From Streptomyces sp. NBC_01803 (GTDB lineage: Bacteria > Actinomycetota > Actinomycetes > Streptomycetales > Streptomycetaceae), in contig NZ_CP109073.1 of the NCBI RefSeq assembly GCF_035917415.1, forward strand, positions 2,998,501-3,062,500: a stretch of 64,000 bases of DNA. Direction: 5' to 3'. The first letter of the stretch is position 1. Every line of letters starts with the position of its first letter. Made by a program: the position numbers and the translations under genes. Positions 4,265 through 25,244 of the stretch are shown piece after piece. The notes beneath the pieces are model-generated. The model did not search any database and was not told the origin of the DNA. It saw nothing but the letters and a program-made list of their open reading frames with translations.

Positions 4265-4281
4265 GAGAAACAGCAGGTCAC

Positions 4282-6921: not shown

Positions 6922-8622
6922 ATGCACGCCCGACCCGTTTGGCATCCTAGTGCAGCCCGACGCACCGGCTCCAGCGCCGATACAGCACAGACGCCACGAA
7001 AATGCCCAATCAGCAATGAACGCCGCAAAGTCACGCGCTTCCCGCGCGCCTGGCTATCGCGCTACACCCCCATCCAGACCGCGACCGGCTCCCTAATCAC
7101 CGACTACGGCCGCAGTGGCAAGGGCTGCTACGCCTGGGACGCCACCCTCGCCGCGCAGTTGGGCGTGGACCGCTCCGCCATCTCCCGCGCCACGGCCGCC
7201 CTGACGGCCGGCGGCGACGTGCGCGTCACCGACACTTCCGGGCAACGCCGTACCCGGTGGGCCCGGCCCGTCGCCGAGGAAGAGGACGCCGTGGCGATCC
7301 CGGCGGCAGCCCGCGACGACCTGGCCATCCTCGGCGCCCCGTTCACCGTCTACGCGGAACTGTCCTTCCAGCGCGACGTCCAGAACGACCCTCAGGGCTG
7401 CCGCGTCTCCGGCACCGACCTGGCCGAGGCATGCGGCATCGGCGAACGGATGTCCCGCCGGGCGGTGGCCGAGTTGGAGGCGCGCGGCTGGATCACCCAT
7501 GCCGAGCCCGGCGGCGGCCGGGGCAAGGCACCCCGCTACCTGATCCACGACGCCCCGGTGCGCGGGCGGGCAACGCCGCTGGACCTGGTCACCGAGCGCC
7601 CCCGGCCCTACGCCCAGACGCCCCCCGAAAACGCCACCGTCCAAGCGCCCGAGATGGACGCCATACCCGGTCAGCTCACCCTCCCCGACCCCGTCGGCAC
7701 TGCCGGAAACCCGGTACTGAGCGCACACGAAACCCGGTACTCAGCGCACATCAAACCCGGTACTGAGCGCACACAGAACAAGCTCTTTCTAACAAGCTCT
7801 GTTGAACAGGCCGAGGTGGTGGGTGGTTGCAGTTCCCCCGAAGGGGAAAGGTCCGTACCGCGCGCACGCGCACGCGAGGCCGACGATCACGCCGCAGCCG
7901 CACCTGCGCCGCGTGGTGGCCCCGGTGATGGCGCGCCTCGCGCGGAACCGAACACGACCACCCTCGCCGGCTCCAGCACCACCCGGGCATGCCTACCGCC
8001 GCTCACCGTCACCCCCCGCGTCCACCACGTCCTGGCCGAACTCGGCCCGCTGGTCGGCCGGATGACCCGCTGGCAGCAACGGGAGACCGCCCGCGCCATC
8101 GGCCGAACCCTGGACACCGAGGGAGGCGACATCGAACGCCTGGCGCTCCGCGTCCGCTTCCGCGTCGCCACCGCCGACCTGGCCACCGTCCGCGACTCGT
8201 ACGCCTGGGCGACCCGCCGCGCCCTGCCCCGCCGGGGCTGCCACAACCCCGACTGCGAAGACGGCCATCTGTGGTCCACCGGGCAGGAGTGCCGCGCCTG
8301 TGCCGAGGCACTGACCAGGCGCCGCACCAGCCGCACCGAAGGCACGCGCCCCACGCCCGCCCCGGCCGCCCCCGGGTCCGTGCCCGTGGCGACGTGGCGC
8401 TGCGGCACCTGCGGTACCCCCGGCACCGGCGACCCGCCCGCCAGTAGCCAATGCCACACCTGCTGGGCGAACACCCCCGAGGGCGCGACGGACTTCCTTG
8501 CCGCCAGCCTCGCGCGCCCGGCCGAACCGGCCCCGGGGGCCCCTGACAACCCTCCCGACCTTCCCGGGACTACCACCTACCGGGCCATGCGCGCCGCCCT
8601 CCGCGCCCGGAGCCCGGCGTGA
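6922..8622 (+). CDS. Replication-initiator-like protein with winged helices and zinc fingers
   Basis: A 566-residue protein, probably the DNA-binding initiator or master regulator of the element. ATG 6922 follows GGAG with six bases between. Residues 60-100 read TDYGRSGKGCYAWDATLAAQ then GVDRSAISRATAAL, a helix-turn-helix; residues 164-210 form a second winged helix (SGTDLAEACGIGERMSRRAV). A low-complexity linker (about 215-365) separates them from a C-terminal helical part. Two zinc-ribbon-like pairs follow: near 440-460 (CHNPDC, then CRAC) and near 493-516 (CGTC, then CHTC). Three 23-base iterons lie inside the linker codons. The layout (N-terminal DNA binding, linker holding repeats, C-terminal domain) recalls phage lambda O, whose origin lies within its own gene. 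The replication role is inferred. Confidence 0.6.
   Translation: MHARPVWHPSAARRTGSSADTAQTPRKCPISNERRKVTRFPRAWLSRYTPIQTATGSLITDYGRSGKGCYAWDATLAAQLGVDRSAISRATAALTAGGDVRVTDTSGQRRTRWARPVAEEEDAVAIPAAARDDLAILGAPFTVYAELSFQRDVQNDPQGCRVSGTDLAEACGIGERMSRRAVAELEARGWITHAEPGGGRGKAPRYLIHDAPVRGRATPLDLVTERPRPYAQTPPENATVQAPEMDAIPGQLTLPDPVGTAGNPVLSAHETRYSAHIKPGTERTQNKLFLTSSVEQAEVVGGCSSPEGERSVPRARAREADDHAAAAPAPRGGPGDGAPRAEPNTTTLAGSSTTRACLPPLTVTPRVHHVLAELGPLVGRMTRWQQRETARAIGRTLDTEGGDIERLALRVRFRVATADLATVRDSYAWATRRALPRRGCHNPDCEDGHLWSTGQECRACAEALTRRRTSRTEGTRPTPAPAAPGSVPVATWRCGTCGTPGTGDPPASSQCHTCWANTPEGATDFLAASLARPAEPAPGAPDNPPDLPGTTTYRAMRAALRARSPA
7707..7775 (+). repeat. Three 23-bp iterons inside the initiator-like gene
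   Basis: Tandem copies at 7707-7729, 7730-7752 and 7753-7775 of AAACCCGGTACTGAGCGCAC plus three bases; only a few positions differ between copies. The 23-base period is not a multiple of three, so the three copies are read in three frames (PVLSAH, TRYSAH, KPGTERT). Conservation is therefore at the DNA level. A further direct repeat AACAAGCTCT occurs at 7777-7786 and 7791-7800. Candidate origin or operator. Confidence 0.75.
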
Positions 8623-8972: not shown

Positions 8973-9752
8973 TTAACCGATGACGGTGGGGCTGACTGCT
9001 GCCCACGCCCCGCATGTACGGGCACGTTGCGGTCCATCCGGCCGGGCGGCTCGATCCGCTCCACCCGACACTGCATCAGCAGGGGCCTTCGCGCTGCCGG
9101 TCTTCCACCAATTCGACCGAGCAGACCTCCTCGGCCAGGCGGTCAGCCGTTCCTCGTCTGCTCGTGTCGCGGGCCGGCGGCCGAGGAGTTCGGCGGCGCG
9201 GAGGGCCAGGTGCGGGGCCTTCTGTTCGTCGATACGGCCGACCCACACGAGGTCGTCGCCCTTGATCGCGGGCGGTTCGGCTTCGCCGAGGCCGAGGTGG
9301 ACGGCGAGCTCAGCGCGGGGTTGGTGGGCCGCGTACCGTTCGATCATCTCGGGCGAGTAGCAGTACAGGCGGTCCCGTTTGCCGTCGAAGGCATCCGGCG
9401 CGTGCTGGAAGTCGGGGTTGTGCTGGAAGGTGGCCACGTCGCAGCCGAGCCTGTCCCGTATCCGGCGCCAGGCGGGCAGTGTGGGGTACTCGTGGCCGAC
9501 GACCAGCAGGTCGTAGCCGGTGGCGGCGAGGTCGCGGGTGGCGGCCGACCCCGGCAAGGTGTCCTCAAGGCGTACTGGCTTGCGGGTCCAGCCCGCTCCG
9601 AGGTCGTCGCGCCAGGCCGGCCCGAGGAGGTGTACGTCGGCGCCTGCAGCTTGCGCTCCTACGGCTACTGCCCATAACCAGCGTTCGATCCCACCGTATC
9701 CGGTCGGGGGGAATGCGTAGCTGCTGGGGAAGTCGCACACGCCGACCAACAT
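8973..9752 (-). CDS. GT4-like glycosyltransferase, C-terminal half lost or shifted
   Basis: A 259-codon frame that begins with a GT-B N-terminal domain: FPPTGYGGIERW near residue 15, LLVVGHEYPT, FQHNPD and CYSPEMIERY are typical of GT4-type transferases that move a sugar from a nucleotide donor. The frame reaches the start of the donor domain (DDLVWVGRIDEQKAPHLALR) and after LLGRR becomes arginine- and tryptophan-rich with no family character. The donor-binding C-terminal domain is missing, so this copy is probably inactive or truncated by deletion toward 8973. ATG 9752 follows directly after the SerRS stop with no gap, so it is the second gene of that operon. The acceptor is unknown. Confidence 0.6.
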   Translation of the reverse strand: MLVGVCDFPSSYAFPPTGYGGIERWLWAVAVGAQAAGADVHLLGPAWRDDLGAGWTRKPVRLEDTLPGSAATRDLAATGYDLLVVGHEYPTLPAWRRIRDRLGCDVATFQHNPDFQHAPDAFDGKRDRLYCYSPEMIERYAAHQPRAELAVHLGLGEAEPPAIKGDDLVWVGRIDEQKAPHLALRAAELLGRRPATRADEERLTAWPRRSARSNWWKTGSAKAPADAVSGGADRAARPDGPQRARTCGAWAAVSPTVIG

Positions 9753-11048
9753 TTATGCCTCCGAGGGCGCTCCGTCCGCCGTGATCCGGCGGAAGCCGAG
9801 GTAGGGGACGAGGGATTGCGGGAGCAGGACCGAGCCGTCCTGCTGCTGGTGCTGTTCGAGGACGGCTGCCAGGGTGCGGCCGACGGGCAGGCCGGAGCCG
9901 TTGACGGTGGCGGCCGGGGTGGACTTGTTGTGCTCGTCGCGGGTGCGGATGCCGGCCCGGCGGCCCTGGAAGGTGCCGAAGTCGGAGACCGAGGAGATCT
10001 CGCGGTACGTGCTCTGGCTGGGCAGCCAGACCTCGATGTCGTAGGTGAGCTGGGCGGAGAAACCGGTGTCGCCGGCGGCGAGGGTGACGACGCGGTAGGC
10101 GAGGTCGAGTTCCTTCAGGCACGCCTCGGCGTGGCCGACCATCTTCTCCATCTCGGCGCGGGAGTCGCCGGGGGCGCAGATGCGGACCATCTCGACTTTG
10201 GAGAACTGGTGCTGGCGGATCAGCCCGCGGGTGTCGCGCCCGTACGAACCGGCCTCGGACCGGAAGCAGGGAGTCTGCGCGGTCAGGGCCAGGGGCAGGC
10301 CGGCGGGCGGGATGATCTCGTCGGCGTAGAGGTTGGTGAGGGGGACCTCGGCGGTGGGGATCAGGAACAGCTCGCGATCGGCCACACCGGTGGCGAACAA
10401 GTCCTCTTCGAACTTGGGGAGTTGGCCGGTGCCGGTCATGGTCTTGCGGGTGACCAGGAACGGCACGGAGTGCTCGGTGTAGCCGTGGCGGCGGGTGTGC
10501 AGGTCGAGGAAGAGCGTCACGAGGGCGCGTTCGAGGGCGGCGCCGACACCGCGGAGGACGCTGAAGCGGGGGCCGGAGAGCTTGGTGGCCCGGCCGAAGT
10601 CGAGGATGCCCATGGCTTCGCCGAGGTCGACGTGGTCCTTCGGTTCGAAGGAGAAGGCGGGCGCGTTGCCGACGCGGCGTTGCTCGACGGCGAAGTCCTC
10701 GGAGTCACCGTCGGGTGCCTCGTCAGCGGGCAGATTCGGGATAGTGAGCAGGAGCTGGGTCAGCTCCTCCTGGACCCGGTCCTGCTCTGCCTCAGCCTCG
10801 CGGATCTGTTCTTTGAGCTTGCGGGCCTGGTCCTTGAGGGCGGAGGTGTCGCCGCCCGACCTCGCCGTCTTCTGGACCTCGGCCGCGACGCTCTTGGACT
10901 CGGAGCGCAGTTCATCGGCGATGCGGATGCTCTGGTTGCGGCGGGACTGGAGGGACTCCAGGGAGGAGAGGTCCAGGGTGTAGCCGCGACGGGCGAGGCG
11001 GCGGACCGCCTCGTCTCCCATGTCGATCAGAGCGCGCGCGTCATGCAT
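9753..11048 (-). CDS. serS: Seryl-tRNA synthetase paralogue
   Basis: A complete 431-residue class II synthetase that charges tRNA-Ser. Residues about 27-105 form the two-helix coiled-coil arm that grips the long variable arm of tRNA-Ser. Motif 1 lies near 155-172 (TKLSGPRF), TAE at 232-234, motif 2 at 262-290 (FRSEAGSYGRDTRGLIRQHQ) and motif 3 at 386-398 (GLPVGRTLAAVLE). ATG 11048 gives the normal start; a longer upstream frame is not needed. Its N terminus (HDARALIDMGDEAVRRLARR) is unlike the usual actinomycete housekeeping SerRS, and it lies in mobile cargo, so I read it as a second copy. Such copies give resistance to SerRS inhibitors or feed seryl-tRNA into biosynthesis (VlmL in valanimycin is the known example). 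It overlaps the upstream phosphatase remnant by 8 bases. Confidence 0.9.
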   Translation of the reverse strand: MHDARALIDMGDEAVRRLARRGYTLDLSSLESLQSRRNQSIRIADELRSESKSVAAEVQKTARSGGDTSALKDQARKLKEQIREAEAEQDRVQEELTQLLLTIPNLPADEAPDGDSEDFAVEQRRVGNAPAFSFEPKDHVDLGEAMGILDFGRATKLSGPRFSVLRGVGAALERALVTLFLDLHTRRHGYTEHSVPFLVTRKTMTGTGQLPKFEEDLFATGVADRELFLIPTAEVPLTNLYADEIIPPAGLPLALTAQTPCFRSEAGSYGRDTRGLIRQHQFSKVEMVRICAPGDSRAEMEKMVGHAEACLKELDLAYRVVTLAAGDTGFSAQLTYDIEVWLPSQSTYREISSVSDFGTFQGRRAGIRTRDEHNKSTPAATVNGSGLPVGRTLAAVLEQHQQQDGSVLLPQSLVPYLGFRRITADGAPSEA

Positions 11049-11730
11049 GAGGGGGTCTCTCCTCGGGCGGGGTCCGTAGGGGACCGAAGTTAGCAAGGAT
11101 GGGCATCCCTCCCCGACGCGATTCCCTACGCTCACCCCCTGTCGGCTCTGCGCCCGCTCGGCTCCGGTTGAGGTCATCGATGAGCCGTCCCGTGAGGCCG
11201 TGCAGCCGGGCGTCCGAGGTGATCAGCGGGTCCAGGCAAGCGGCTTCCGGGAAGAACAGGGGGATGGGCGTGCCGGGTGGTTCGGCCAGTGCCCAGGTGA
11301 GCGACGACAGCAGCAGGCCATGGGCGACAATCACGCGCGTGGACCGGGGCGTGTCAGCGTGCCCTGGACTCCGGCGAGCATTCGCGCGAAGGCTTCGCCC
11401 TGCGACTCGGCGGAGCCCGGCGGGCGGGCCCAGGGGCCGTGTCGTCCGAGCCAGGTGGCGTAGTCGAGGAAGGAGCCGCCTTCGAAGTCGCCGTAGCCGA
11501 GTTCGTTGAGGCGGGGGTCGCTTCGGAATTCGGCCCGGGTGGCGCCTGCGAGGAGGAGGGCGGTCTGCTGGGTTCGTTGGAAGCCGCTGGTGATCCACAC
11601 TCGGGCGTCGCTCAGGGAACCGGTGTGGTGGAGGCGGTGGCATGCGGCGATGCCTTCCGCGTTGAGCGGGAGGGCGGCGCTCGGGTCGCCGTTCACCAGG
11701 TAGCTAGTTTGCTGAAGGGCGGATCTGCGA
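11041..11730 (-). pseudogene. Histidine phosphatase, 5'-truncated and frameshifted
   Basis: Two frames together encode most of a phosphoglycerate-mutase-type phosphatase: first QTSYLVNGDPSAALPLNAEG to GTLTRPGPR, then RVIVAHGLLLSSLTWALAEP to the stop at 11041. The switch falls in CGCGCG at 11334-11339 and looks like a 2-base insertion. At the 5' end the family's R-H-G before QTSYL is replaced by A-L-Q, so the catalytic histidine is absent and the break falls just there, next to the divergent HAD start. It once preceded SerRS in an operon. An intact relative lies at 21734. The frameshift could be a sequencing error, but the lost RHG could not. Confidence 0.65.
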
Positions 11731-11741
11731 AGGGAGCGGGC

Positions 11742-12383
11742 GTGAGTTATCGCGGGCTGATTCTGGACTTCGCCGGGGTACTGGCGACGGGCATCGGGGA
11801 AGCGATCGGGCAGTGGTGCGTCGGGGAGGGGCTGGCGCCGGACGCGTGGCTCCGGGCCTTGGCGGTTGACCCGGAGGGGCGTGAGCGGTATCTCGCTCTG
11901 GAGGCGGGGCGGTTGACGCAGGCCGAGTGGAACCGGCACACAGCGCGAGCGCTCGGCTTGGCGGAGTCCGAGAACCTCATGGGCCGGGTGTGGGCCGGCG
12001 TGCGGCGCGCGGAGGAGGTGATCGCTGTGGCGAGGGCGGCTCGTGAGGCGGGGATGACGGTGGCGATGCTGTCCAACAGCTTCGGGCTGGATCCGTACGA
12101 CCCGTATGAATACGTCGGTGTGTGGGAGCTGTTCGACGTCGCGGTGATATCCGAGCGGGAGGGGATCGCCAAGCCGGATCCGGAGATCTACCGGCTGACG
12201 TTGGAGCGCATGGGCCTGAGCGGCGAGGAGTGCGTCTTCGTGGACGATCAGGCGGTCAACCTCCCGCCGGCCACCGCGCTGGGCATCACCACCGTGCATG
12301 CCGACGGCGATCCCGGCTACGTCGGGCGCCTGGCGGGACTGCTCGGCCTGGAGTTGGCACCTGAGACGCCACGGGTGGTGTAG
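11742..12383 (+). CDS. HAD-superfamily hydrolase
   Basis: A 213-residue HAD-IA type phosphatase-like enzyme. GTG 11742 follows AGGGAG. Motif I is LDFAGVL at residues 8-14, giving the nucleophile Asp9 and the D-F-G/A-G-V form seen in small phosphatases and dehalogenase-like members; motif II is the SNS of AMLSNSFG near 109; motif III is the lysine of AKPDPEIY; motif IV is FVDDQ. A helical cap follows motif I. Phosphorylated sugars or nucleotides are the usual substrates, which would fit the sugar/nucleotide operon nearby. Its 3' end overlaps the convergent flavoprotein gene by 67 bases. Confidence 0.82.
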   Translation: MSYRGLILDFAGVLATGIGEAIGQWCVGEGLAPDAWLRALAVDPEGRERYLALEAGRLTQAEWNRHTARALGLAESENLMGRVWAGVRRAEEVIAVARAAREAGMTVAMLSNSFGLDPYDPYEYVGVWELFDVAVISEREGIAKPDPEIYRLTLERMGLSGEECVFVDDQAVNLPPATALGITTVHADGDPGYVGRLAGLLGLELAPETPRVV

Positions 12384-13216
12384 TAGGCGCGCAGGGCAGC
12401 TTCGGCGCCGGAACCGCTGGCCGTCATGATCCGCTGGTACTGGGCGAAGCGCAGGTCTCCGGCGACGATGAGGCCCGGGTGCTGGAGGTCGGGCGGGCAG
12501 TAGCCGTCCACGTCCCGGACAACGCCAGGGGGTGGGGCCGGGGCGCTGCCGATGTTGGTGAAGGCGGCGTCGCCGCGCAGTCCGCCGGGCTCGGCGGTCA
12601 GGGCGCTGGTCAGGGTCAGGCGTGGTGTGGGGAGCAGGGTGACGCGGGGGTCAGCGGCGACTTCCTCCGCCTTGTAGGCGTCGGTGGCGGGGTGAGGGAC
12701 CAGGAGGGTGACGTCGAGGTCGGGATGGGCCCGCAAGAAGGTACCCAAAGGGCGGTCGGCGCCGACGATGAGCCAGGTGCGGCCCTTGACCTCGGCGGGG
12801 TCGGCTTCCCACAGCGGGGGCAGCCGGAGACCGGCCGGTGCTTCGATCCAGTCCGCATCAGCGGGCTGGAGTGGGGCGACCCCGGTGGCCAGCACGGCGT
12901 AGGGAGCGGTGAGCCGGGTGCCGTCATTCAGCGTGACGGTGACCTCCTCATCGCCCGGGGCGATCGCGGTGACGTCAAGGCCCGTGCGGATCTGGCACAG
13001 AGCGTTCACGGCGAGGTCAGCGGTGATGGCGGCGGCGAGGTCCGGACCCGTCTGGAAGCCGCCGAGCACGTTGTTCAGGGCCGGGATGCTGTACAGCTTC
13101 CGGCACAGGACCGCCTTTCGCTCGATCAGGACGGAACGCATGCCGACGCCCGCCGCGGTGATGGCGGCGGCGCAGCCGGCCGGGCCGCCGCCGATGATCA
13201 GCAGGTCCGGGGTCAA
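12317..13216 (-). CDS. Thioredoxin-reductase-like flavoprotein lacking CxxC
   Basis: A 299-residue FAD protein of the thioredoxin reductase fold. The FAD site IIGGGPAG lies at residues 6-13, and TGVAPL followed by the YCPPDLQHPGLIVAGDLR segment marks the second FAD contact. The NAD(P) domain has VGADRPLG instead of G-x-G-x-x-G. The redox C-x-x-C expected near residue 135 is absent: that part reads WIEAPAGLRLPPLW. It therefore cannot work as a thioredoxin reductase; it resembles actinomycete relatives of unknown role that use FAD for other chemistry. The start is TTG 13216, overlapping the upstream stop (TTGA), so it is coupled to the cysteine hydrolase gene. It ends inside the convergent HAD gene. 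Confidence 0.75.
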   Translation of the reverse strand: MTPDLLIIGGGPAGCAAAITAAGVGMRSVLIERKAVLCRKLYSIPALNNVLGGFQTGPDLAAAITADLAVNALCQIRTGLDVTAIAPGDEEVTVTLNDGTRLTAPYAVLATGVAPLQPADADWIEAPAGLRLPPLWEADPAEVKGRTWLIVGADRPLGTFLRAHPDLDVTLLVPHPATDAYKAEEVAADPRVTLLPTPRLTLTSALTAEPGGLRGDAAFTNIGSAPAPPPGVVRDVDGYCPPDLQHPGLIVAGDLRFAQYQRIMTASGSGAEAALRAYYTTRGVSGANSRPSSPARRPT

Positions 13217-13776
13217 CGCGGGTTCTCCTGATCGGAGGTGAGGAGGGCGTCGGTGGTGATGAGCTGGCCACGGCCGATGAGGCGGCGGGCGACAAGCAGC
13301 CCGGCGTCGTGGACAGCAGGTCCGGCGTCACTGGCGCAGGCGTCGGTGACGATCCAGGGCGCGAGTCCTCGCTCGAACGTGTCGGCGGCGGACTTCAGCA
13401 CGCAGCTCTCGGTCGCGATCCCGCAGAAGATCAGATCCGTCCAGCCCTCTTTGGCGACCAGTTCTTCCCCCTGCGGGTTGAGGAAGGAGTAGCCCGTCTT
13501 GTCGATGACCGGGTGGGCGGCTTCGGCAAGTTCGGCCAGCGCGGGGACCAAGTCGGTGTCCGGTGAGCCCTGCAGGCGGGTCCAGGAGAAGAAACGCTCG
13601 TAGGGGCTGTCCGGGTAGTTGTGGTAGCAGGTGAAGACCACGGGTCGGCGCAGGGCGATCCACTCGCGCGCAAGGTTCACGACGGCCGGGACGACATGCC
13701 CGCTGTGTTCGTTCACGAAGCCGTTCTGCACATCGACCACGACGAGGACCGCGGTCTCCGCCTGAATTCGGGGCAC
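13213..13776 (-). CDS. Isochorismatase-like cysteine hydrolase
   Basis: A 187-residue alpha/beta hydrolase of the isochorismatase/nicotinamidase fold. The catalytic triad can be placed at D15 (VVDVQN), K93 (IDKTGYSF) and C125 (ATESCVL), with the cis-peptide segment before the cysteine. Members cleave amides, N-carbamoyl groups or vinyl ethers; the substrate cannot be told here. GTG 13776 begins at the family start VPRIQAETAVLVVVD. It starts 13 bases after the regulator gene and its stop overlaps the flavoprotein start, so the three form one minus-strand operon. Metal-site residues of nicotinamidases (D-x-H) are not evident. Confidence 0.85.
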   Translation of the reverse strand: MPRIQAETAVLVVVDVQNGFVNEHSGHVVPAVVNLAREWIALRRPVVFTCYHNYPDSPYERFFSWTRLQGSPDTDLVPALAELAEAAHPVIDKTGYSFLNPQGEELVAKEGWTDLIFCGIATESCVLKSAADTFERGLAPWIVTDACASDAGPAVHDAGLLVARRLIGRGQLITTDALLTSDQENPR

Positions 13777-13789
13777 CTTGTCGCGCCGC

Positions 13790-14924
13790 TCAGACAGTGG
13801 TCTCGCGCAGAGCATGCTGCGCTTCCCGCAGCCGTTCGGCCAGCCCGCTGGTCTTCACGATCGCCTCCCGCATCAAACAGTGCTGCGCCGTCTCTTGAGG
13901 ACGCGCCGCTGTAAGCCGAGAGTACGCGGCACGTAGGAACCGCCAGCCGTACCGGTCCGGCACGGCTGGGTCCCGGCCGTCTTCGATCAGCTTCTGGATG
14001 TGGCGGGAGTAGCACCACAGAGTCTGCACGGTCACCTCGCAGGAGACGAGTTCATCGATGGTGAGAGCGCGTTCCGGCGCCTGAGCCGCATAGGCCACGC
14101 CGGACCAGCCCGCGTACCCGGTGGAGACGCCCCGGACGCCGAAGGGCACCACGTCCGGATGGTCGAACCCCGAGGTGAGCAACGTCTTTTCGATGGACTC
14201 GTCCAGGCCGGTCGGCCCTCCCGGCGCTCCCCGGTCCACCAGGACGGACGGTGTCGACAACAGGCGCAGCGCGGTGTGCAGTTCGCGGTCCACCCAGGGG
14301 ATGGAGCGGAGCCAGTAGAGAGAGCACGTACTCGGGGGGCGGGCGTCGTAGGTCGTTCCCCAGAAGCTCGCACAGCGTCCGGGCGGCCCAGGGCAGGTCC
14401 GACGCATAGCTGCGGTAACGCCAAACCGCCAGCTCCGTAAGGGACTCCGGGCGCCGCTCCTGCACGATGTGGAAGAGCGCCGTGCCGCAACCCGCGATAT
14501 GCAGCGTGCAGGAGCCGGCGTCGGGATGTTCGACGCGCAGCGACGTCGTCTCCGGCCACGAATCGGCCGACCCCGGCCCATGGTCGGCCATAACCGCCTG
14601 TGCACTGTCGGCACCGATGAACGCTGGGATGAACTTGTGCGAGTCCAGGATCAGTTCGTCAGAAGCCGTCGGCCGAGGGGCATTCGCGGGGCCTTCGAAC
14701 GCGGCGGCGAAGCGAGCTTGCACGTCATCCGACGAACGGGCCAGGGCGGTGTCCAGCAGTGCCTGAGACTCCGAGCGGGGCACGTAACCGTCGGCACCGG
14801 CCTCCCACTTGGACACGGCGCGATCGCTGACGCCCAGATACGACGCGAAGTCCCGCAAGGTCATCCGCAGCGCCTCGCGGAGCAGCCGCGCCTCGCGCCC
14901 CGTCCACCGCCGCACCGTCACCAT
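13790..14924 (-). pseudogene. XRE-family regulator with frameshift in an AG repeat
   Basis: ATG 14924, with GGGGG eight bases upstream, begins a regulator whose residues about 8-60 form an XRE helix-turn-helix (LREALRMTLRDFASYLGVSD, then RAVSKWEAG). A long ligand or dimer domain follows. The frame changes near 14317-14324, a run of four AG pairs (CT on the coding strand): before it the reading is RRPPPEYVLS, after it LYWLRSIPWVDRELHTALRL, which continues sensibly to the stop at 13790. Both halves are well kept, so this may be a recent slip, a phase-variable switch or a sequencing error. It is divergent from the NUDIX operon across 190 bases (14925-15114), which probably hold both promoters and its operator. 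Confidence 0.7.
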
Positions 14925-15114
14925 CACCGGTCCCCCTGCCCGATCGCGAGCCGAACCACCCAGCGTAGCCGGGCCAGTTCGGCGGGGGTACAGCGTTGGT
15001 GCGGCGGCCGGACATCCTCCCGGCGCGCGGCATGACCCATGCTGGATCAGCACGGCGAGAAAGCGGACCCTCACCCGGAGTGAGAGCCCTACTGAGGCGG
15101 CAAGGAGGCCAAGA

Positions 15115-15582
15115 ATGACCGACATCATCAAGCGCAGCGCCCGAGCGATCCTCCTCGACGGGGAGGAACTCGTCCTCATCAAGCGCACCCGCCCCGGACG
15201 TGACCCGTACTGGGTGACCGTCGGTGGCGGTATCGAGGACGACGACGTGAGCGTCGAGGACGCCCTGCGACGGGAGGTCTTCGAGGAGCTCGGCGGAACG
15301 GTGGGCAGGGCCGAGCTGGTCCATCTCGTGACCGACCGGTTGGAAGGCGGGCTCGGCGTCCAGCACGTCTTCGCCGCCCGCCTGGAATCCATGGACCTGG
15401 CGGCGCGCACGGGCACGGAGTTCTCCAAGCCGGAGCGCGGGAGCTACGCGGTGGTGCGCATCCCCTTCACCGCGGAGGCCATTCGGAGCATCGAGCTGAT
15501 GCCCCCGGCTCTGGCGGACTTCGCGGCGGAGAACACCGAGGCGATCCGCTCCGTCCTGGACACCCCGATCCGCAAGGACTGA
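15115..15582 (+). CDS. NUDIX hydrolase
   Basis: A 155-residue NUDIX enzyme that hydrolyses nucleoside diphosphate-linked compounds. ATG 15115 follows AAGGAGG. The NUDIX box is complete in the segment that begins GGGIEDDDVSVEDAL and continues RREVFEELGG: G-x5-E-x7-R-E-x-x-E-E-x-G, with the metal-binding glutamates present. The substrate is unknown. It is the first gene of a plus-strand operon of nine genes that runs to 22479 with overlapping or close-spaced frames. A sanitising role for a modified nucleotide made by the operon is an inference. Confidence 0.88.
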   Translation: MTDIIKRSARAILLDGEELVLIKRTRPGRDPYWVTVGGGIEDDDVSVEDALRREVFEELGGTVGRAELVHLVTDRLEGGLGVQHVFAARLESMDLAARTGTEFSKPERGSYAVVRIPFTAEAIRSIELMPPALADFAAENTEAIRSVLDTPIRKD

Positions 15583-15587
15583 ATGTC

Positions 15588-16244
15588 GTGGACGGACTCC
15601 CGGAGTACATCAGCCTCAACGGGCCGGACAATGTCGGCAAGACCACCCAGCTTCGTCGGCTCGCCGAGATGTCGCCGCGCTTCCAGCCGCTGGGCTCGGT
15701 ACACGAACATGATTCGGAGACCTGGCATCGGGTGGCGGGCGAGGGCTACGCGCGGTGGTGGTTCGAGACGTCCACGACCGCCGAGCTGACGCGCATGCTG
15801 ATCTCCGGCCACACCAAGCGTGCCACCGCCAAGGCGGTTGGCCGGGCAGGCTTGCTGGATCGCGGCAGACCGATGCTGTTGGCCGTCGCCGCCGCGACGT
15901 GTGCGCTGAAGGACGGCCTGACCGTACCGGCGGCGCTGGATCGCGTGACGGTACTCGCCGAGCAGCCGTCTCCGGACGAGACCTCGGTGCTCCTGCTGCC
16001 ATCCCGCGACCCTGACCGCAGCTACGCGATCACCAGCGCGCGGGAGAACCGCCCCTGGACCGGCGTGTATCCCGCCTACCAGCGTCTCCTGCACCAAGTC
16101 CTCCTGCTCCAGGCCGAACGCGGGACGTACCCCGTGGTCGTCCTGTGCGAAGGCCGATCGGCAGCCGATATCCACGCGGCGGTGGCCGGCCACCTCTCCT
16201 CCTACCTTCCGACCTCACAGCGCGCGGAAAGGAACAGCCCGTGA
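15588..16244 (+). CDS. Thymidylate-kinase-like P-loop protein
   Basis: A 218-residue protein with a P-loop at residues 11-20 (NGPDNVGKTT), as in dTMP kinases (usual form G-x-D-G-x-G-K-S/T), where N-V replaces the usual G-A pair. A later LLDRGRPML provides the D-R-x of the substrate-binding region. The rest is more divergent than a housekeeping kinase: no clear lid arginine cluster is visible. GTG 15588 lies five bases after the NUDIX stop, and its own stop overlaps the next start (GTGA). It probably phosphorylates a nucleotide or a nucleotide-linked intermediate in the pathway of this operon. Actual substrate unknown. Confidence 0.75.
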   Translation: MDGLPEYISLNGPDNVGKTTQLRRLAEMSPRFQPLGSVHEHDSETWHRVAGEGYARWWFETSTTAELTRMLISGHTKRATAKAVGRAGLLDRGRPMLLAVAAATCALKDGLTVPAALDRVTVLAEQPSPDETSVLLLPSRDPDRSYAITSARENRPWTGVYPAYQRLLHQVLLLQAERGTYPVVVLCEGRSAADIHAAVAGHLSSYLPTSQRAERNSP

Positions 16245-18046
16245 AGCCCCCCGATCACCCGCCTCCGCTGGTGCTCCCGCCCGGCCTGGTCCGAGCAACG
16301 GACTCGCTGAGCGCGAAGGATCAGCGACGTCTGGACGACGCCGTTACCAGACTGCACACGGTCAACGGTCGCCTGTGGGACGCCGAGGACCAGGTGCGCG
16401 ACACCAGCATCTCCACGCTGCGGGTGGCGGATCTCAAGCGGGAGATCGACCAGCTCAACGCCGAGCGGAACGCCTTGGCCGAACGAGCCGACGACATCCT
16501 CGTCGCTCTCGCGCCGACACCGCATCTCAACGCGCCCCCGCATACCGAGACGCTGGCCTCGACCGTGGACCGCCTCTCGGTGCTGACCCTGCGGATCTGG
16601 CACAACGAGCGCTCCGCGCGGTGCGACGACCTGGCCCGTCGACGTACGCCCGTGCTCCTGCGCCAGCGCACTGAGCTGTGTGCGGCCGTCGACGCCCTGG
16701 TCAACGACGTGCGAGCGGGACGCGTACGACTGCCCTCAGCCGCCCGCCACAAGCTGTACGGCCGTCCCGACGCCGGCACCACGGAGGTCACGCCGAGCCC
16801 TCGCCTTGAACGGGTCATCGCCTTCGGCGGGTTGAGCGAGTGCGGCAAGAGCACGAGCGCGGCGTTCGTTCAACACACCTGTGGAGCGCAGCGGCTCAAG
16901 ATGGGCTATCTCTTCCGCCAGGCCGCACAGCGTCATGGCCTGGCCGACCCGTACGCTCTCTCCGCCCGCCGTCAGGCCGAGCTGCTCCTCGACGAGCTGA
17001 ACCGCTTCGCCGAAGGGCACGCCGACCAGCGGCTGTTCACCATCGAGTCGGTCCACGACGACGCCTCCATCGCCGAGCTCAAGCAGCTCATGGGCGACCG
17101 CCTCCGGATCGTGTACCTGGACGCCGACTTCGCCGAGCGCGTACGACGCTCCGGCACGCCGGCACAAGCCGTGGCCGCCAAGGACGAGATCAAGATCAGT
17201 CGGGGAGCCCACCGCGTCGCCGCCTTCGCCGACCACGTCATCGACAACTCCGGCAGCGTCATCGCGCTGCGCGCCCAGCTCCGCCGCATCGCCAGTCCCG
17301 GTGGAATCGCGGGCCTGCGCACCGCCACGCCCTACGGCCTGGGCCTGTCGGCGGCCGCCGCCGGCGCGACCGCCGACCTCGTCGACGCCCTGCAACCGTG
17401 CAGCCCCGCGGTGGGCCTTGTCGCCCTCACCGGCAGTCCGGGTGAACACGCCTGGATCGCCGGCTGGTCCGACCTCGACCTGCTCGTCGTCGCCGACCCC
17501 CAGGCGACCGACGACGTGTCCGCCGCGGTCGCCCACTACCGGGAGGCCTTGAATAACGCGGCGTCTGTCGGGCTCACCCTGGCCACGGCAGCCGAACTGA
17601 GCGCCCGGCGCGTCACACCGCGCGTCGCCTTTGCCCTGCACCAGCTCCAAGAGGGAAGTCCCGTCCTCTACGCCTCCCCCGGACTGGAACTGCCGTTCAT
17701 CAATCGGCACGATTTGGCCCTCGCCGCGGTCCACGAGCTGCCGCAAGTCATCCTGGCCCTGCGCCGCCTGCGCGCCGACGCCCAGCCGGACAAGCTCCGG
17801 CAGCTGTACAAGCACATCGTCCTGGCCTGCCGACTCCTCCTGCGCGAGCACGGCAACTGGCTCGCGGGCGCCGACCGGATCCTCGCCGCCTCCGCCACAC
17901 TGCCCGGCTTCCCGAAGCTGGCCGTGCCCCCGCTCGCGGAAGTCGCCGCCGCCTGGCGCGAGGACAAGGCGCACGAGGCCCTCCCCTCGATCACCGCGGC
18001 GGCCGACCAACTCCTCGCCTGGTACGCCCACGACGTAGCCGCCTGA
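16241..18046 (+). CDS. Triple fusion: DUF4254, P-loop kinase and nucleotidyltransferase
   Basis: A 601-residue protein. GTG 16241 overlaps the previous stop. Residues about 15-175 resemble DUF4254, a helical domain with N-x-x-L-W-x-x-E-D at 42-50 and K-R-x-I-D-x-L-N at 67-74, met in glycan and heptose clusters. Residues about 190-380 are a P-loop kinase-like domain with GGLSECGKST at 196-205 and a later LRIVYLDADF strand as in adenylate and cytidylate kinases. Residues about 395-601 fit a Pol-beta type nucleotidyltransferase: GSPGEHAWIAGWSDLDLLVV gives the G-S and the D410-x-D412 pair. Such a chain could phosphorylate and nucleotidylate one intermediate. I do not know this fusion from any described pathway. 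The nucleotidyl domain could instead be a regulator. Confidence 0.7.
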   Translation: MKPPDHPPPLVLPPGLVRATDSLSAKDQRRLDDAVTRLHTVNGRLWDAEDQVRDTSISTLRVADLKREIDQLNAERNALAERADDILVALAPTPHLNAPPHTETLASTVDRLSVLTLRIWHNERSARCDDLARRRTPVLLRQRTELCAAVDALVNDVRAGRVRLPSAARHKLYGRPDAGTTEVTPSPRLERVIAFGGLSECGKSTSAAFVQHTCGAQRLKMGYLFRQAAQRHGLADPYALSARRQAELLLDELNRFAEGHADQRLFTIESVHDDASIAELKQLMGDRLRIVYLDADFAERVRRSGTPAQAVAAKDEIKISRGAHRVAAFADHVIDNSGSVIALRAQLRRIASPGGIAGLRTATPYGLGLSAAAAGATADLVDALQPCSPAVGLVALTGSPGEHAWIAGWSDLDLLVVADPQATDDVSAAVAHYREALNNAASVGLTLATAAELSARRVTPRVAFALHQLQEGSPVLYASPGLELPFINRHDLALAAVHELPQVILALRRLRADAQPDKLRQLYKHIVLACRLLLREHGNWLAGADRILAASATLPGFPKLAVPPLAEVAAAWREDKAHEALPSITAAADQLLAWYAHDVAA

Positions 18047-18114
18047 CCCGCGTTCCGCCGCACGCGACCGCATCCTCTTTCACCTTTCACCGCACCACCG
18101 ACAGGAGCCTCGCC

Positions 18115-18693
18115 ATGCCCGAAACCCTGGCCATACCACCGCGGTTCTCTGCCCGGATCATCGAACGCCTCAGCATTGGTCCCTCCAGCCGTCCCGAACG
18201 CGTCATCCACTCGCTCGACGGCGTGGAGGAGGCTGTCCGCCCCGCGGCACTCGCCGCCGCGGGCGCCGAGCTGTGGCAGCGCGCTCGCAGCGATATCCCC
18301 GGAATCCGGGACGGCATCGACTTCCTCCTGGGCCTGGACGCCGGCGGCATCCTGCCCACCGTCTCACTGGCCACGGCCGCTGAACTGCCGTACAAGATCG
18401 CGTGGAAGCTGCACCTCCCCCTGGACGGCGAGGTGCGCTTCACCGAACCGCATGCCACGCGCACCGACGTCTTCGCGTACGGCATCGCCGCCGGTCAGCG
18501 CATCCTGCTGGTCGACGACGAAATCACCACCGGCTGGACGCTCGCCAACCTGACCACCCGTCTTCGCGAAGCGGGAGCCATCCCCGTAGGAGCCGCATGC
18601 CTCGTCGAGGACACCGAACGCGGCGGACGGGCCCGCCTCGCCGAACTCGACCTCCCGCTCGTCTCCCTCGCTCACGTGGGAGCCTCACGGTGA
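18115..18693 (+). CDS. Type I phosphoribosyltransferase
   Basis: A 192-residue PRTase. The PRPP-binding loop ILLVDDEITTGWTL at about 130-143 is canonical (hydrophobic stretch, D-D/E, then T-T-G-x-T). The flexible-loop region and hood are typical of small purine-type enzymes, but the base acceptor cannot be read. It starts 68 bases after the fusion gene; ACAGGAG lies before ATG 18115. Its stop overlaps the next start (GTGA). Within the operon it could attach ribose 5-phosphate to a base or remove it, feeding the kinase and nucleotidyltransferase steps. Confidence 0.85.
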   Translation: MPETLAIPPRFSARIIERLSIGPSSRPERVIHSLDGVEEAVRPAALAAAGAELWQRARSDIPGIRDGIDFLLGLDAGGILPTVSLATAAELPYKIAWKLHLPLDGEVRFTEPHATRTDVFAYGIAAGQRILLVDDEITTGWTLANLTTRLREAGAIPVGAACLVEDTERGGRARLAELDLPLVSLAHVGASR

Positions 18694-19856
18694 CCACCAC
18701 AGCGCCAACGGCCCACTTCCGCCCCGGAACCCACGTGACGGGCGAGCACGAGGTGCACAGCACACCACTCGGCTACGACCGCGCGACCCTCCCCGCTGGC
18801 GCCCTCCTGCCGCTCCCCGCATCCGACGCGCTCGTCGAGGGCGTGAGCCACGCCACCACTGTGGAGCTGGCCTTCCACGGCAAGCTCGGCGACAGCCTCC
18901 TCGCCCTGTCCGCTGCACGAGCGGCCCTCGACTGGCTCGCTCAGCGGATGGACGCCGTACCCGTCAATGTCCGCGCCTCAGGTCCCCACGCCGACCTCGT
19001 GCGCCGCACGAGTCTCCTCGCCCAAGCCGTGCCATCCACGGCGCCCGAAGGATCTCGCCTTCTCATCGGCGACCGGGCGGGCATCGCGGCCCGAGGCGCT
19101 GAAGCCGCGACCAGCCTGGTGTGCGATCCAGCGGCACCGCCCTGTTGGTCCGCGGACGGCATCGCACACACCTCGCTCCCCAACCGCTACTACCTGGCGC
19201 TCGAACGCCGCCTCGGCGTCCGTCTGCCGACAGACCCGCCCTTCACTCCGCAGTTGGTGGCCCGGCCGAACTGGCTGGTGCGGCGTCTCCGAGCGACCGG
19301 CTGGTTCGAGGGCATCACCCTGGCCGCCATCACGGCCACCAGCCGACCCGACCTCAAGGACTACACCGCACAGCGCTACATCGAGGTGGCCCAACTCCTC
19401 GCACAGATTCTCAACGCCCAGGTCCGGCTCCTCCTCATCGGCGGACACCATGCGAGCGGGTCCCGCATTACGGCCGCCGACGCAAACGCGCAACTCCAGT
19501 CCCTCCGCCTGGACGGCCTCCCGGTCAATGACCTCGCCGACCTGCTCCCGCATTGCTCCCTCGTCATCGGCAACGACACCGGCCTCACCCACCTCGCCGC
19601 CCTGTCCCGTGGCGAGACAGGCGAAGGACCGCACGTCATCGGCCTGCACGCCCGCCACAGCCACAGCAAATGGAACACCGGCCTGCCCCACCACCATGCC
19701 GTGAGCACCGTCTTCGCCCACCAGATGCACCAAGGCGACCTCTGCCCGGTACGCGACGCTCTCACCCCCACCGATGATGACTGCCACCTCGACGCCGTCG
19801 CCCCAGCCTGGCTGGCCAGCATCTGTGCCGAACTCCTCCTGGGAGGCGTCCGATGA
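18690..19856 (+). CDS. GT9 heptosyltransferase-like glycosyltransferase
   Basis: A 388-residue GT-B enzyme of the GT9 (ADP-heptose:LPS heptosyltransferase) type. The N-terminal domain has VELAFHGKLGDSLLALSAAR, which matches the G-x-x-G-D-x-x-L loop of the family; the C-terminal donor domain has VIGNDTGLTHLAAL, the S/N-D-T/S-G-x-x-H signature. A late HSKWNTG and CPVRD occupy the donor-pocket end. In Gram-negative bacteria such enzymes use ADP-heptose to build LPS; in a Gram-positive actinomycete without LPS the acceptor must be something else. GTG 18690 overlaps the previous stop, and ATGA joins it to the next gene. The donor sugar is not known. Confidence 0.8.
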   Translation: MTTTAPTAHFRPGTHVTGEHEVHSTPLGYDRATLPAGALLPLPASDALVEGVSHATTVELAFHGKLGDSLLALSAARAALDWLAQRMDAVPVNVRASGPHADLVRRTSLLAQAVPSTAPEGSRLLIGDRAGIAARGAEAATSLVCDPAAPPCWSADGIAHTSLPNRYYLALERRLGVRLPTDPPFTPQLVARPNWLVRRLRATGWFEGITLAAITATSRPDLKDYTAQRYIEVAQLLAQILNAQVRLLLIGGHHASGSRITAADANAQLQSLRLDGLPVNDLADLLPHCSLVIGNDTGLTHLAALSRGETGEGPHVIGLHARHSHSKWNTGLPHHHAVSTVFAHQMHQGDLCPVRDALTPTDDDCHLDAVAPAWLASICAELLLGGVR

Positions 19857-20995
19857 CGCCATCCACCGGGCGTCGTTGGTCGATCGGGCCCCTGCGGCGC
19901 TTCACGCGCAATCTGCTGCTCCCCGTGAACGCCGCAGGCAGTCCGCTCCTCTTGAAGTACACCCGCCACCCCGCCGAGGCCCGCGAAGAGATCCGAGGCC
20001 ACCGCCAAGTCTCTGCCAACTACCGAGTCCCCACGCTCCATGCCCACTTGCGCGTCCCCGGCGGACACCTCGTGGTCTACGAACGGCTCCCGGCAGGACG
20101 CGACCGGGGCCTCCTCCTCGACCTCCTCAACACCGAGCAGCCCACCCCCGACCTCACGCGCTACCTCGACGACCTCACCAGCCACTACCGACACGTCATC
20201 CTCAGCACCGCGCGCCTGGCGGACCCGACCGACATCATCCGCAAGCTCTACTGGGACCGCGCCGCCCCCGGCGGACGCCTCGACCACTACTACGCGGACA
20301 CCGATCCCCTCCTCACCGTCGGGACCGACCACCTGCCCCTGTCCCAACTCGCGGGCTACACCCTCCACATCAACGGCGACGAGCTTCACCTCGACTGGAC
20401 CGCGACGCTCACCGACCTGAAGCGGCACTTCCACTCCAACGAACCGGTCTGGGCCGCCATCACCCAGGGAGACCCCACCGACGTCAACCTGGCTCACCCG
20501 CTCGCCTGGCTGGACCTCGACACCGGCGGCCTGAACAGCATCGCGGGCGAGTTCGCCAACTACCTCTGGTACACCACCGCCCTCGGCGGCTGGCTCGTCC
20601 CCACCTACAACCCCGCAGCCTTCGCCGACCACCCCGCCACCCTCACCCGCCTGCCCGCCAACACCCCCGAACTGCACAAGGCGCGTATCGACATCGGCAA
20701 CCGCGTGATCACCGTCTCCTACACCCTGCGGCTCTCCCAACCCCGCCGCCTCGCGGCAGCCACCTACTGGCACCGGCTCGTCCAGCCCGTCGCCGCCGAA
20801 CTCTGGCCCGACACGAACCTCGCCGACATCCTGCGCCCCTACGTGGCCATGCGCATCCTCGCCGTCTACAACCTCGACGACCTCGCCCCCGCAGACCGGC
20901 TGGTCCTCATCATCCGACTCGCGGAAGTCATGAGCGGCGACTTCTCCGCGGAGTCCTTCTTCCTTGCCCCGGAGCCAGCATGTCCAGCCTCCTGA
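19853..20995 (+). CDS. Aminoglycoside-phosphotransferase-like kinase
   Basis: A 380-residue protein with a protein-kinase-like fold of the APH/choline kinase group. The N-lobe has a glycine-poor nucleotide loop and LLLKYT with the likely ATP lysine. The catalytic loop reads QGDPTDVNLAHP at about 205-216 (Asp207, Asn212; the usual H-x-D is Q-G-D). The metal site follows as WLDLDTGG near 219-226. Small-molecule hydroxyl groups are the normal substrate; a sugar is a fair guess. It overlaps both neighbours (ATGA at its start and 16 bases with the SDR gene at its end). The His-to-Gln change in the catalytic loop is tolerated in some relatives. Confidence 0.75.
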   Translation: MTPSTGRRWSIGPLRRFTRNLLLPVNAAGSPLLLKYTRHPAEAREEIRGHRQVSANYRVPTLHAHLRVPGGHLVVYERLPAGRDRGLLLDLLNTEQPTPDLTRYLDDLTSHYRHVILSTARLADPTDIIRKLYWDRAAPGGRLDHYYADTDPLLTVGTDHLPLSQLAGYTLHINGDELHLDWTATLTDLKRHFHSNEPVWAAITQGDPTDVNLAHPLAWLDLDTGGLNSIAGEFANYLWYTTALGGWLVPTYNPAAFADHPATLTRLPANTPELHKARIDIGNRVITVSYTLRLSQPRRLAAATYWHRLVQPVAAELWPDTNLADILRPYVAMRILAVYNLDDLAPADRLVLIIRLAEVMSGDFSAESFFLAPEPACPAS

Positions 20996-21741
20996 CAGGA
21001 CGGACCGCCCTCATCACCGGCGCGACCGGCGGCATCGGCTCGGCCCTCAGCCGCCGCATCGCGGCCCAGGGCGCGGCCATCGCACTCACCCACCTCAACG
21101 ACCACCGGGCCGCCGAAACCCTCACCACCGACATCACCACCCACGGCGGAACCGCCATCCCCCTCGAAGCAGACCTGCGAGACGCCGACGCCCTCGAAGT
21201 CCTGTGCCGCCGCGCCACGTCGCGCATCGGCCCGATCGACATCCTGATCAGCAACGCTGGCGCCTACCCACGCGTCCCCTGGCCGACCATGACCCCCACC
21301 GACTGGCACGAAGCCCTCGACATCAACCTCACCAGCCACTACCTCCTCGCCCGAGCCCTTACCCCCGCCATGACCGCCCGAGGCCACGGCCGCGTCATCA
21401 CCATCGGCTCCGTCCTGGCCGTCGCGGGCCGCCACGACCTCGCCGGATACATCAGCGCCAAGGCTGGCCTCGAAGGACTCACCCGTGCCCTGGCCCGAGA
21501 ACTCGGCCCCGCCGGCATCACCGCCAACTGCGTCGCGCCCGGCTCCATCCAGGTGTCCGCCGAGAACGCCGTCGTCGACGACTCCGTCGCCATGACCGCC
21601 CGCCAACTGGCCCGCCAGTGCATACAGCGCCGAGGAATCCCCGACGACATCGCAGCCGTCGTCGCCTTCCTCGCCTCCGACGACGCCGGGTTCATCACCG
21701 GCCAGACCCTGCGCGTGGACGGAGGCTGGATCCTTGGCTGA
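20980..21741 (+). CDS. Short-chain dehydrogenase/reductase
   Basis: A 253-residue classical SDR. The NAD(P) loop TGATGGIG lies at residues 13-20, NAG at 92-94, Ser144, and YISAK gives Tyr157 and Lys161, so the catalytic set is complete. The C terminus with GQTLRVDGGW is standard. ATG 20980 overlaps the kinase gene, and its stop overlaps the start of the phosphatase gene. It probably oxidises, reduces or epimerises a hydroxyl group on the operon's sugar or nucleotide intermediate. Confidence 0.87.
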   Translation: MSSLLTGRTALITGATGGIGSALSRRIAAQGAAIALTHLNDHRAAETLTTDITTHGGTAIPLEADLRDADALEVLCRRATSRIGPIDILISNAGAYPRVPWPTMTPTDWHEALDINLTSHYLLARALTPAMTARGHGRVITIGSVLAVAGRHDLAGYISAKAGLEGLTRALARELGPAGITANCVAPGSIQVSAENAVVDDSVAMTARQLARQCIQRRGIPDDIAAVVAFLASDDAGFITGQTLRVDGGWILG

Positions 21742-22315
21742 CATCTGGCTCATGCGCCACGCCGCCTACGAAGGCCACCGCCCCGGCTACCACGCCCCAC
21801 CCAACGCCGCCCTCACCCCCGAGGGCCACGACCAGATCCGCCATGCCCTCCCCCTACCCGACGGCATCACCGGCATCGTCACCAGCCCGCTCCTCCGAGC
21901 CCGCCAGACGGCGGAAGCCCTTCGCTCCCTCACCGGACTCCCCATCGTCGCCACCACCGACCTCCTTGCCGAATGGCACGCCCCCACCGCCGTCCACGGC
22001 CACACCCCCGACACCTACCCACCCGCCTACCGCACTTGGCGAACCCACCGCACCACCTACCCCGACCTCGCCTACGAAGACGGCGAGTCCCTCACCACCC
22101 TCCACACCCGAGCCACCCACTGCGCTCACTATCTACGCGGCCTCACCGAACAGCGCCAAGGCCCCGTCCTCGCCATCTCCCACAAGCTCCTCCTCGGCGT
22201 CCTCCTCCGCCTTCCCCAGGGCCCCGCGTCTTTCGAAGCCACCGTCCATACCCCTTGGCCCTTCGCTACGGTCAAGTTCCTGCCGCGCCCGAGCTGCGAC
22301 GGAGCCCAACGATGA
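21734..22315 (+). CDS. Histidine phosphatase (phosphoglycerate-mutase-like)
   Basis: A 193-residue enzyme of the histidine phosphatase superfamily. LMRHA at residues 6-10 supplies Arg8 and the phosphoacceptor His9; SPLLRARQTAEAL provides the second arginine; the second catalytic histidine lies in AISHKLL. The start appears to be TTG 21734, eight bases inside the SDR gene. It has no signal peptide, so it acts in the cytoplasm. It may remove a phosphate from the pathway intermediate. A second, broken family member lies upstream of SerRS at 11041-11730. Confidence 0.85.
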   Translation: MADIWLMRHAAYEGHRPGYHAPPNAALTPEGHDQIRHALPLPDGITGIVTSPLLRARQTAEALRSLTGLPIVATTDLLAEWHAPTAVHGHTPDTYPPAYRTWRTHRTTYPDLAYEDGESLTTLHTRATHCAHYLRGLTEQRQGPVLAISHKLLLGVLLRLPQGPASFEATVHTPWPFATVKFLPRPSCDGAQR

Positions 22316-22479
22316 GCCCCCGCCGTACGCTCCGCCTCTTCCTCGCACGCCGAGCCGGCGAGGTACGCCGCCACCTCGCGGCCTCCCTGCTCACCATCGC
22401 GCTGGTCGTCCTGATCTTCGGCCTCATCGGTTACCCCTTGGCCACCCTCGCCGCCGGAATGCCGACTGTCATCGCTTAA
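22312..22479 (+). CDS. Small single-span membrane protein ending the operon
   Basis: Fifty-five residues. ATG 22312 overlaps the phosphatase stop as ATGA, so it is coupled. A basic N terminus with eight arginines (residues 4-20) is followed by a hydrophobic span at about 24-48 (LLTIALVVLIFGLIGYPLAT). The inside-positive rule places the N terminus in the cytoplasm. It has no known family. As the last gene of an operon of soluble enzymes it may anchor the enzymes or act as an exporter accessory; this is a guess. Confidence 0.6.
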   Translation: MSPRRTLRLFLARRAGEVRRHLAASLLTIALVVLIFGLIGYPLATLAAGMPTVIA

Positions 22480-23824: not shown

Positions 23825-23887
23825 TCATAGGCGACCCGTCCGGGTGGAAACCCGCCGTGATCACCAACTCCGCGGTATGGTTTCCCC

Positions 23888-25240: not shown

Positions 25241-25244
25241 ATCT

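Follow-up and report, generated by a model that had tools for sequence, protein, structure and literature searches.

A conserved orphan operon and the remnant of a seryl-tRNA synthetase operon on a tRNA-targeting integrative element of Streptomyces sp. NBC_01803

The genome of Streptomyces sp. NBC_01803 carries two seryl-tRNA synthetase (SerRS) genes, and one of them, here called SerRS-2, lies beside a compact plus-strand operon of nucleotide- and sugar-related genes. Do these neighbours serve a single pathway? We analysed a stretch of 64,000 nucleotides (positions 2998501-3062500 of the 5.85-Mb single-contig genome; hereafter the window), in which both lie within a 29.1-kb integrative element (window positions 4218-33359) at a tRNA-Gly(CCC) gene. 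The original prediction, made from the sequence alone, had treated SerRS-2, a GT4-like gene and the operon as one unit that makes and transfers an activated sugar or nucleotide, perhaps to a seryl-bearing product. Instead, the block falls into two independent units. One of them, unit A, is what is left of a separate SerRS/S-adenosylmethionine (AdoMet) synthetase operon, with only the SerRS gene still intact; the other, unit B, is a real, conserved orphan operon adjoining this remnant (Table 1).

The independence of the two units is evident from their relatives. About 20 kb around SerRS-2 was inspected in 15 of the 28 other same-genus genomes having this gene. Twelve of these 15 loci (L079, L080, L081, L152-L157, L159, L162 and L163) contained the complete operon, that is, an AdoMet synthetase (MAT), an APH6-like kinase, a histidine phosphatase, SerRS, a GT4 glycosyltransferase and an unnamed protein (X405) together, and core genes of unit B were found in none of the 15. 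Conversely, none of 41 loci with the unit B operon had a SerRS of the SerRS-2 type nearby. The co-occurrence that the original prediction had expected was found for a DUF4254 fusion, a phosphoribosyltransferase (PRTase) and a GT9 glycosyltransferase, which stand together in at least 38 of the 41 loci, but not for SerRS-2. In the window, the full SerRS-2/AdoMet-synthetase operon is absent: a broken histidine phosphatase gene, which had been missed in the earlier gene list, the intact SerRS gene and the GT4 gene alone remain. The GT4-like gene was rightly recognised, but it is truncated compared with that of L081. Its retained part matches relatives at 73-78% and still shows a ratio of non-synonymous to synonymous substitution rates (dN/dS) of 0.18-0.24, so that its decay would be recent. 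A HAD hydrolase gene lies between the two units; its presence had been noted, but it is on the plus strand. It has relatives (60-62%) beside the unit B operon in L012 and L031 (the latter being the same as L125), and one (61%) in a single SerRS-2 locus, L158. The SerRS/AdoMet-synthetase operon is itself a conserved orphan operon and offers genome mining a distinct target besides unit B.

The synthetase of unit A is a genuine extra SerRS, as had been proposed. It retains intact class II motifs 2 and 3, shares 39% identity with the housekeeping SerRS of the host, and shows purifying selection in comparisons with three relatives (dN/dS 0.12-0.16). The SerRS-2 type (78-100% identity) was found in 29 of 295 same-genus genomes, its own genome counted, and the VlmL-type SerRS (57-60% identity) in 17; one genome, G152, has both. 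In a phylogenetic tree (midpoint root; a joint group of 15 rows with one long row, L067; VlmL itself absent), SerRS-2 grouped with the SerRS of VlmB-bearing azoxy-type clusters (99/99), apart from housekeeping SerRS, in keeping with the earlier comparison with VlmL. In two genomes of another family (G139, locus L063, and G117, locus L064), a SerRS of the SerRS-2 kind (70% identity) was the only SerRS among the matches listed.

Unit B was traced with a pattern-based scan of a genome collection (one genome per species, 84,980 species) built on a 15-row alignment of the fusion, by which divergent copies may be missed. The scan gave 56 loci, of which 41 (L003-L043), from Streptomycetaceae, Nocardiopsis and Glycomyces, were counted; the others were partial (L044), reduced (L045-L047, L050-L053 and L055) or distant (L049, L054 and L056-L058), or had a fused thymidylate-kinase-like kinase (TMK) with DUF4254 not seen (L048). 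All eight plus-strand core genes occur in the same order and on the same strand in 38 of the 41 loci, the distal ones being absent from L015, L021 and L027. The opposing arm of flavoprotein, isochorismatase-like protein and XRE regulator is present in 32, and no other neighbour family is common to most of the loci. The named sources of the closest fusion relatives are mostly Streptomyces. Among the 295 same-genus genomes, whose counts overlap in species with the 41 loci, ten have the fusion (one split), one a fragmented copy, 14 a reduced kinase/nucleotidyltransferase, five DUF4254 alone and three weak matches, giving 33 with any form. Unit B is kept under selection in its relatives; two values for the isochorismatase-like gene (1.6 and 1.8), evidently misaligned, were discarded. 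No plasmid record covers 80% of the full fusion. As the original prediction had supposed, no operon with this gene set was found described in the literature searched, most subscription literature being outside reach. In L045, L046, L049, L050 and L053, a reduced module joins TMK, kinase and nucleotidyltransferase in one protein near APH, SDR (short-chain dehydrogenase/reductase) and/or NUDIX genes, and relatives of the fusion kinase also occur in Nomurabacteria and Berkelbacteria bins.

Pfam matches agree with the families first assigned to the NUDIX, DUF4254, PRTase (Pribosyltran), GT9 (Glyco_transf_9), histidine phosphatase (His_Phos_1) and SDR proteins; likewise, the flavoprotein is thioredoxin-reductase-like, the cysteine hydrolase has an isochorismatase fold and the kinase an APH fold. 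The plus-strand frames mostly overlap, as had been stated: six of the eight junctions overlap by 4-16 bases and the other two are gaps of 5 and 68, lengths that depend on the start codons we chose. In the structural models, the kinase domain of the fusion is adenylate-kinase-like, and its C-terminal 230 residues match the AadA/AAD(9) fold at 16% sequence identity, with the two-domain fold and catalytic aspartates of AadA-type enzymes and a conserved GS...GW.D.D motif. The model of the APH-like protein (predicted local distance difference test score 91.8) matches APH(3')-Ia, methylthioribose kinase and APH(4). The XRE regulator had been correctly named, but it is split over two frames where its relatives have a single one. 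This frame change and that in the histidine phosphatase gene beside SerRS-2 may reflect decay or sequencing error, which are indistinguishable here. The aligned stretch upstream of the NUDIX gene contains conserved patches, from which no operator was derived.

Table 1. Features of the integrative element and of units A and B (window positions)
Feature	Position	Strand	Evidence or remark
att (attachment) repeat, left	4218-4264	+	47-bp perfect direct repeat, identical to 33313-33359; 3' end of tRNA-Gly(CCC)
Integrase gene (phage integrase family)	4265-5722	+	PF00589, E 1.1e-12
Excisionase-like (Xis-like) HTH_17 gene	6298-6711	+	PF12728, E 4.9e-23
Putative replication-initiator-like gene	6922-8622	+	Weak helix-turn-helix matches only; label inferred
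Unit A, GT4 gene, truncated	8973-9752	-	PF13439, 28.5 bits; 259 aa vs 340 aa in L081
Unit A, SerRS-2, intact	9753-11051	-	TIGR00414, 442.7 bits; second SerRS of the genome
Unit A, histidine phosphatase remnant, broken	11052-11717	-	Frame change; RHG stretch at start of relatives not seen
HAD hydrolase	11727-12335	+	PF00702
Unit B, divergent cluster	12317-22479		Flavoprotein, isochorismatase-like, XRE (-) facing eight core genes (+)
Thioredoxin-reductase-like flavoprotein	12317-13216	-	
Isochorismatase-like cysteine hydrolase	13213-13815	-	PF00857, E 1.4e-29
XRE regulator	13790-14924	-	Split near 14290; HTH_31 in L003 orthologue
NUDIX hydrolase	15115-15582	+	PF00293, E 3e-13; 71-81% in Streptomycetaceae loci
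TMK, thymidylate-kinase-like P-loop kinase	15588-16244	+	P-loop and DRG motifs; weak TMK matches only; no Pfam match
DUF4254/adenylate-kinase-like kinase/AadA-like nucleotidyltransferase fusion	16241-18046	+	601 aa; PF14063, 113.8 bits
PRTase	18115-18693	+	PF00156; adenine/orotate phosphoribosyltransferase (APRT/OPRT) relatives
GT9 glycosyltransferase	18690-19856	+	PF01075, 43.2 bits (cut-off 22); weak heptosyltransferase II match, E 0.0023
APH-fold kinase	19853-20995	+	No Pfam match; conserved QGDPT..N and D residues
Classical SDR	20980-21741	+	PF13561 (adh_short_C2), 192.5 bits
Histidine phosphatase	21734-22315	+	PF00300, 72 bits
Small membrane protein	22312-22479	+	Relatives in three loci only (L003, L004, L024)
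Remaining element cargo	22952-32640		Eco29kI-type restriction endonuclease (-); Dcm, Vsr-like, HATPase, Mrr/helicase, unknown gene, sigma-r4 protein (+)
att repeat, right	33313-33359	+	47-bp perfect direct repeat, pair of 4218-4264

Both units are carried by a tRNA-targeting integrative element, with an integrase and direct repeats matching the 3' end of tRNA-Gly(CCC); the location of the block inside such an element had been correctly anticipated. The open reading frame (ORF) listed for the integrase begins at 4199, and its true start probably lies after the att repeat. The intact tRNA-Gly(CCC) gene is upstream of the window (genome 2989310-2989383). Five further att-like copies occur within 59 kb (genome 2989310-3048075; window 1540, 4218, 33313, 46672 and 49529), those at 1540, 46672 and 49529 being imperfect over the 47 bp, which suggests a tandem array of elements at this tRNA gene. 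No FtsK/Tra-type transfer gene was named among the element genes scanned, which comprised part of the ORFs, and the single match to Rfam scored far under the gathering threshold.

What, then, does unit B do? Our preferred reading, which we put forward tentatively, is that it is an orphan operon making or modifying one small polar molecule, carried as cargo of the element independently of unit A. From the enzyme families we infer the following steps and product. The PRTase and the kinases would build a phosphorylated nucleoside- or sugar-like core, to which the AadA-like domain of the fusion would transfer a nucleotide and which GT9, with DUF4254, would glycosylate. The APH-like kinase would phosphorylate the molecule, and the SDR, the flavoprotein and the isochorismatase-like protein would tailor it; the histidine phosphatase and the NUDIX protein would strip phosphate or nucleotide at the end, with the XRE protein as regulator. 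Several points weigh against this. Pfam matched no exporter family among the unit B proteins, although a secreted product would usually call for one. Since AadA- and APH-like enzymes also commonly inactivate drugs, the operon could act on an existing molecule instead of making one. None of the steps has an assigned substrate, which folds cannot reveal, and the local copy may be misregulated through its frame-shifted regulator. The operon, eight genes in strict order that include one for a three-domain enzyme, is kept in several actinobacterial families and is patchy within the genus of the window. In the literature searched it has no assigned product, and the term DUF4254 appears in a single paper. 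Its product, if found, would point to a role for DUF4254 and might account for the spare aminoacyl-tRNA synthetases (aaRS) of several kinds beside the operon.

An unlikely explanation is that unit B serves immunity or detoxification. A toxin resembling an aminocyclitol or a nucleoside, either incoming or made by the cell itself, would then be capped by the AadA-like and APH-like enzymes, and the caps would be reversed by the phosphatase and the NUDIX protein. AadA/AAD(9) and APH folds are standard antibiotic-capping folds, both are found in unit B, and the lack of a matched exporter would suit this role. The spare aaRS near six of the 41 loci could be insensitive targets; the albomycin SerRS2 confers such immunity (PMC9032320). 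However, the strict order in which PRTase, GT9 and SDR are kept, together with the flavoprotein and isochorismatase-like protein in 32 of the 41 loci, exceeds the needs of resistance.

These spare synthetases comprise seven genes besides the SerRS of the window: AspRS-like in L023 and L027, ValRS-like in L029, GluRS-like in L035 and L039, and GluRS-like plus SerRS in L043. Elsewhere in each of these genomes, the enzyme in question has one or more additional matches, often divergent. They were drawn from flanks of 464,644 bases through scans of 73 of the 106 listed flanking proteins, shared families and ORF motif scans, the last being incomplete (they missed the AspRS-like gene of L023 and the SerRS of L043). 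Asp, Val and Tyr specificities were assigned by eye from sequence rather than from a curated model; Pfam supported the Glu/Gln-type class for L039 and also matched two tRNA-synt_2 proteins. Forty control windows (800,000 bases, six genomes) contained no full-length aaRS of these types and one 61-residue fragment, a post hoc comparison covering only the types already seen plus one Tyr-like, with random windows that differ from accessory islands. L035 and L039 may be one event, and L040 has a 62-residue GluRS fragment. Nine further carrier regions (L125, L127, L128 and L204-L209) included three new unit B loci (L127, L128 and L209), none of which had these aaRS, and the 11 loci L045-L055 gave one distant match (L054, 27%). 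SerRS-2 occurred more often in genomes having full or reduced modules (7/25 vs 22/270, Fisher P = 0.006; 6/24, P = 0.017, minus the own genome), but not with full operons alone, own genome excluded (2/10 vs 26/284, P = 0.24), and VlmL-type SerRS was not enriched (2/25 vs 15/270, P = 0.43); kinship is ignored in all these tests. A further reading, rather improbable on our estimate, is that the product of operon B is a nucleotide-like scaffold and that each lineage pairs it with a different aaRS (Ser, Glu, Asp, Val). The scaffold would then be the core common to a so far unseen family of compounds that are synthetase-directed or use aminoacyl-tRNA and whose amino acids can be exchanged, with the spare synthetase providing supply, immunity or both. 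In this broader form, with varying aaRS types, the earlier synthetase hunch may hold. The L043 genome (G358, Kitasatospora) has four SerRS matches, one of them partial, and in L119, L120 and L122 DUF4254 alone lies near a gene resembling, by eye, a spare tyrosyl-tRNA synthetase.

In Bacteroidota, loci with DUF4254, GT9 and a kinase seem to make parts of surface or wall glycans, but we consider it quite unlikely that unit B does so too. DUF4254 adjoins GT9 and an InaA-type lipopolysaccharide kinase in Parabacteroides, GT9 and galactofuranose genes in Bacteroides, and lies between two GT9 genes in Burkholderia. However, no flippase, polymerase or lipid-carrier enzyme was matched in unit B, and reduced relatives lack GT9 and DUF4254. 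HldE-derived ADP-heptose is also no general donor, the HldE-type signature rfaE_dom_II being found in only three of ten carriers (own genome one of them) against six of ten non-carriers (E 1e-3); SIS_2, present in all 20 genomes, was uninformative. In Bacteroidota and Burkholderia, DUF4254 stands alone or joined to a GT2-like domain, whereas the unit B protein combines it with kinase and AadA-like domains, in an operon of nucleotide-handling enzymes. One Burkholderia protein (L130:5887-7638) has DUF4254 followed by a second half that is GT2-like by eye, between two GT9 genes.

An anti-phage defence system altering nucleotides is highly unlikely. The element is shared with restriction-modification and Vsr/HATPase/Mrr genes, and relatives of its Dcm and restriction endonuclease (58% and 51%) also adjoin the operon in Glycomyces L039. 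However, PADLOC gave weak matches only (best E 2.5e-5), in three of ten unit B proteins (NUDIX, fusion and PRTase; XRE left out), and the flanks hold a variety of families, relaxases being matched three times among the 73 flanking proteins scanned. A phage-borne origin was rejected, as none of the 61 stretches matched in a scan of viral contigs was a relative. Least credible of all is the single pathway to a seryl-bearing product, for which the adjacency in the window and the enrichment of SerRS-2, but not of VlmL-type SerRS, in full or reduced carriers may speak, because SerRS-2 has its own operon, decayed here and without unit B within about 20 kb in all 15 other loci inspected, and the two full-operon carriers that have both keep them on different contigs (G250) or at a distance of 1.85 Mb (G283).

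Unit B, read as making or modifying a small polar molecule, resembles several known systems in part. The ADP-heptose pathway comprises GmhA, HldE, GmhB, HldD and GT9. The likeness of unit B to it, on which the original prediction had drawn, is nominal: a GT9, a kinase, a phosphatase and a nucleotidyltransferase are present, whereas the SDR and the nucleotidyltransferase belong to other families, and no GmhA-, HldE- or HldD-type family was matched by Pfam among the unit B proteins. The SDR, taken earlier for a heptose-type epimerase, is of the classical type (Epimerase only 28 bits; Table 1), and with no extended-SDR epimerase in the operon and so few carriers having the HldE signature, heptose as a general donor was rejected. 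ADP-heptoses have been noted in septacidin-type antibiotics (PMC10948575). AadA and AAD(9) share their fold with the C-terminus of the fusion, which, unlike them, stands behind a kinase. As to the valanimycin/azoxy type, nine SerRS from Streptomyces plasmids share 57-59% identity with SerRS-2, and two of the nine were viewed beside VlmB-like genes (VlmL itself was not compared); SerRS-2, unlike these, belongs to an operon of its own that includes AdoMet synthetase, kinase, phosphatase and GT4 genes, and Pfam and NCBIfam named no VlmA-, VlmB- or VlmH-type gene in the block, no direct search with those sequences having been made. A SerRS takes part in azodyrecin biosynthesis (PMC9379638), and the divergent second SerRS of albomycin, SerRS2 (AbmK), supplies seryl-adenylate and gives immunity (PMC9032320); both support only the principle of a biosynthetic or immunity SerRS. 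Unit B differs from albomycin in its PRTase, GT9, AadA-like and APH-like enzymes, and the SerRS of the window comes from another, decayed operon (no window gene was compared with the abm genes). The albomycin cluster encodes a nucleoside pathway of Streptomyces, and what it has in common with the present locus is a divergent second SerRS.

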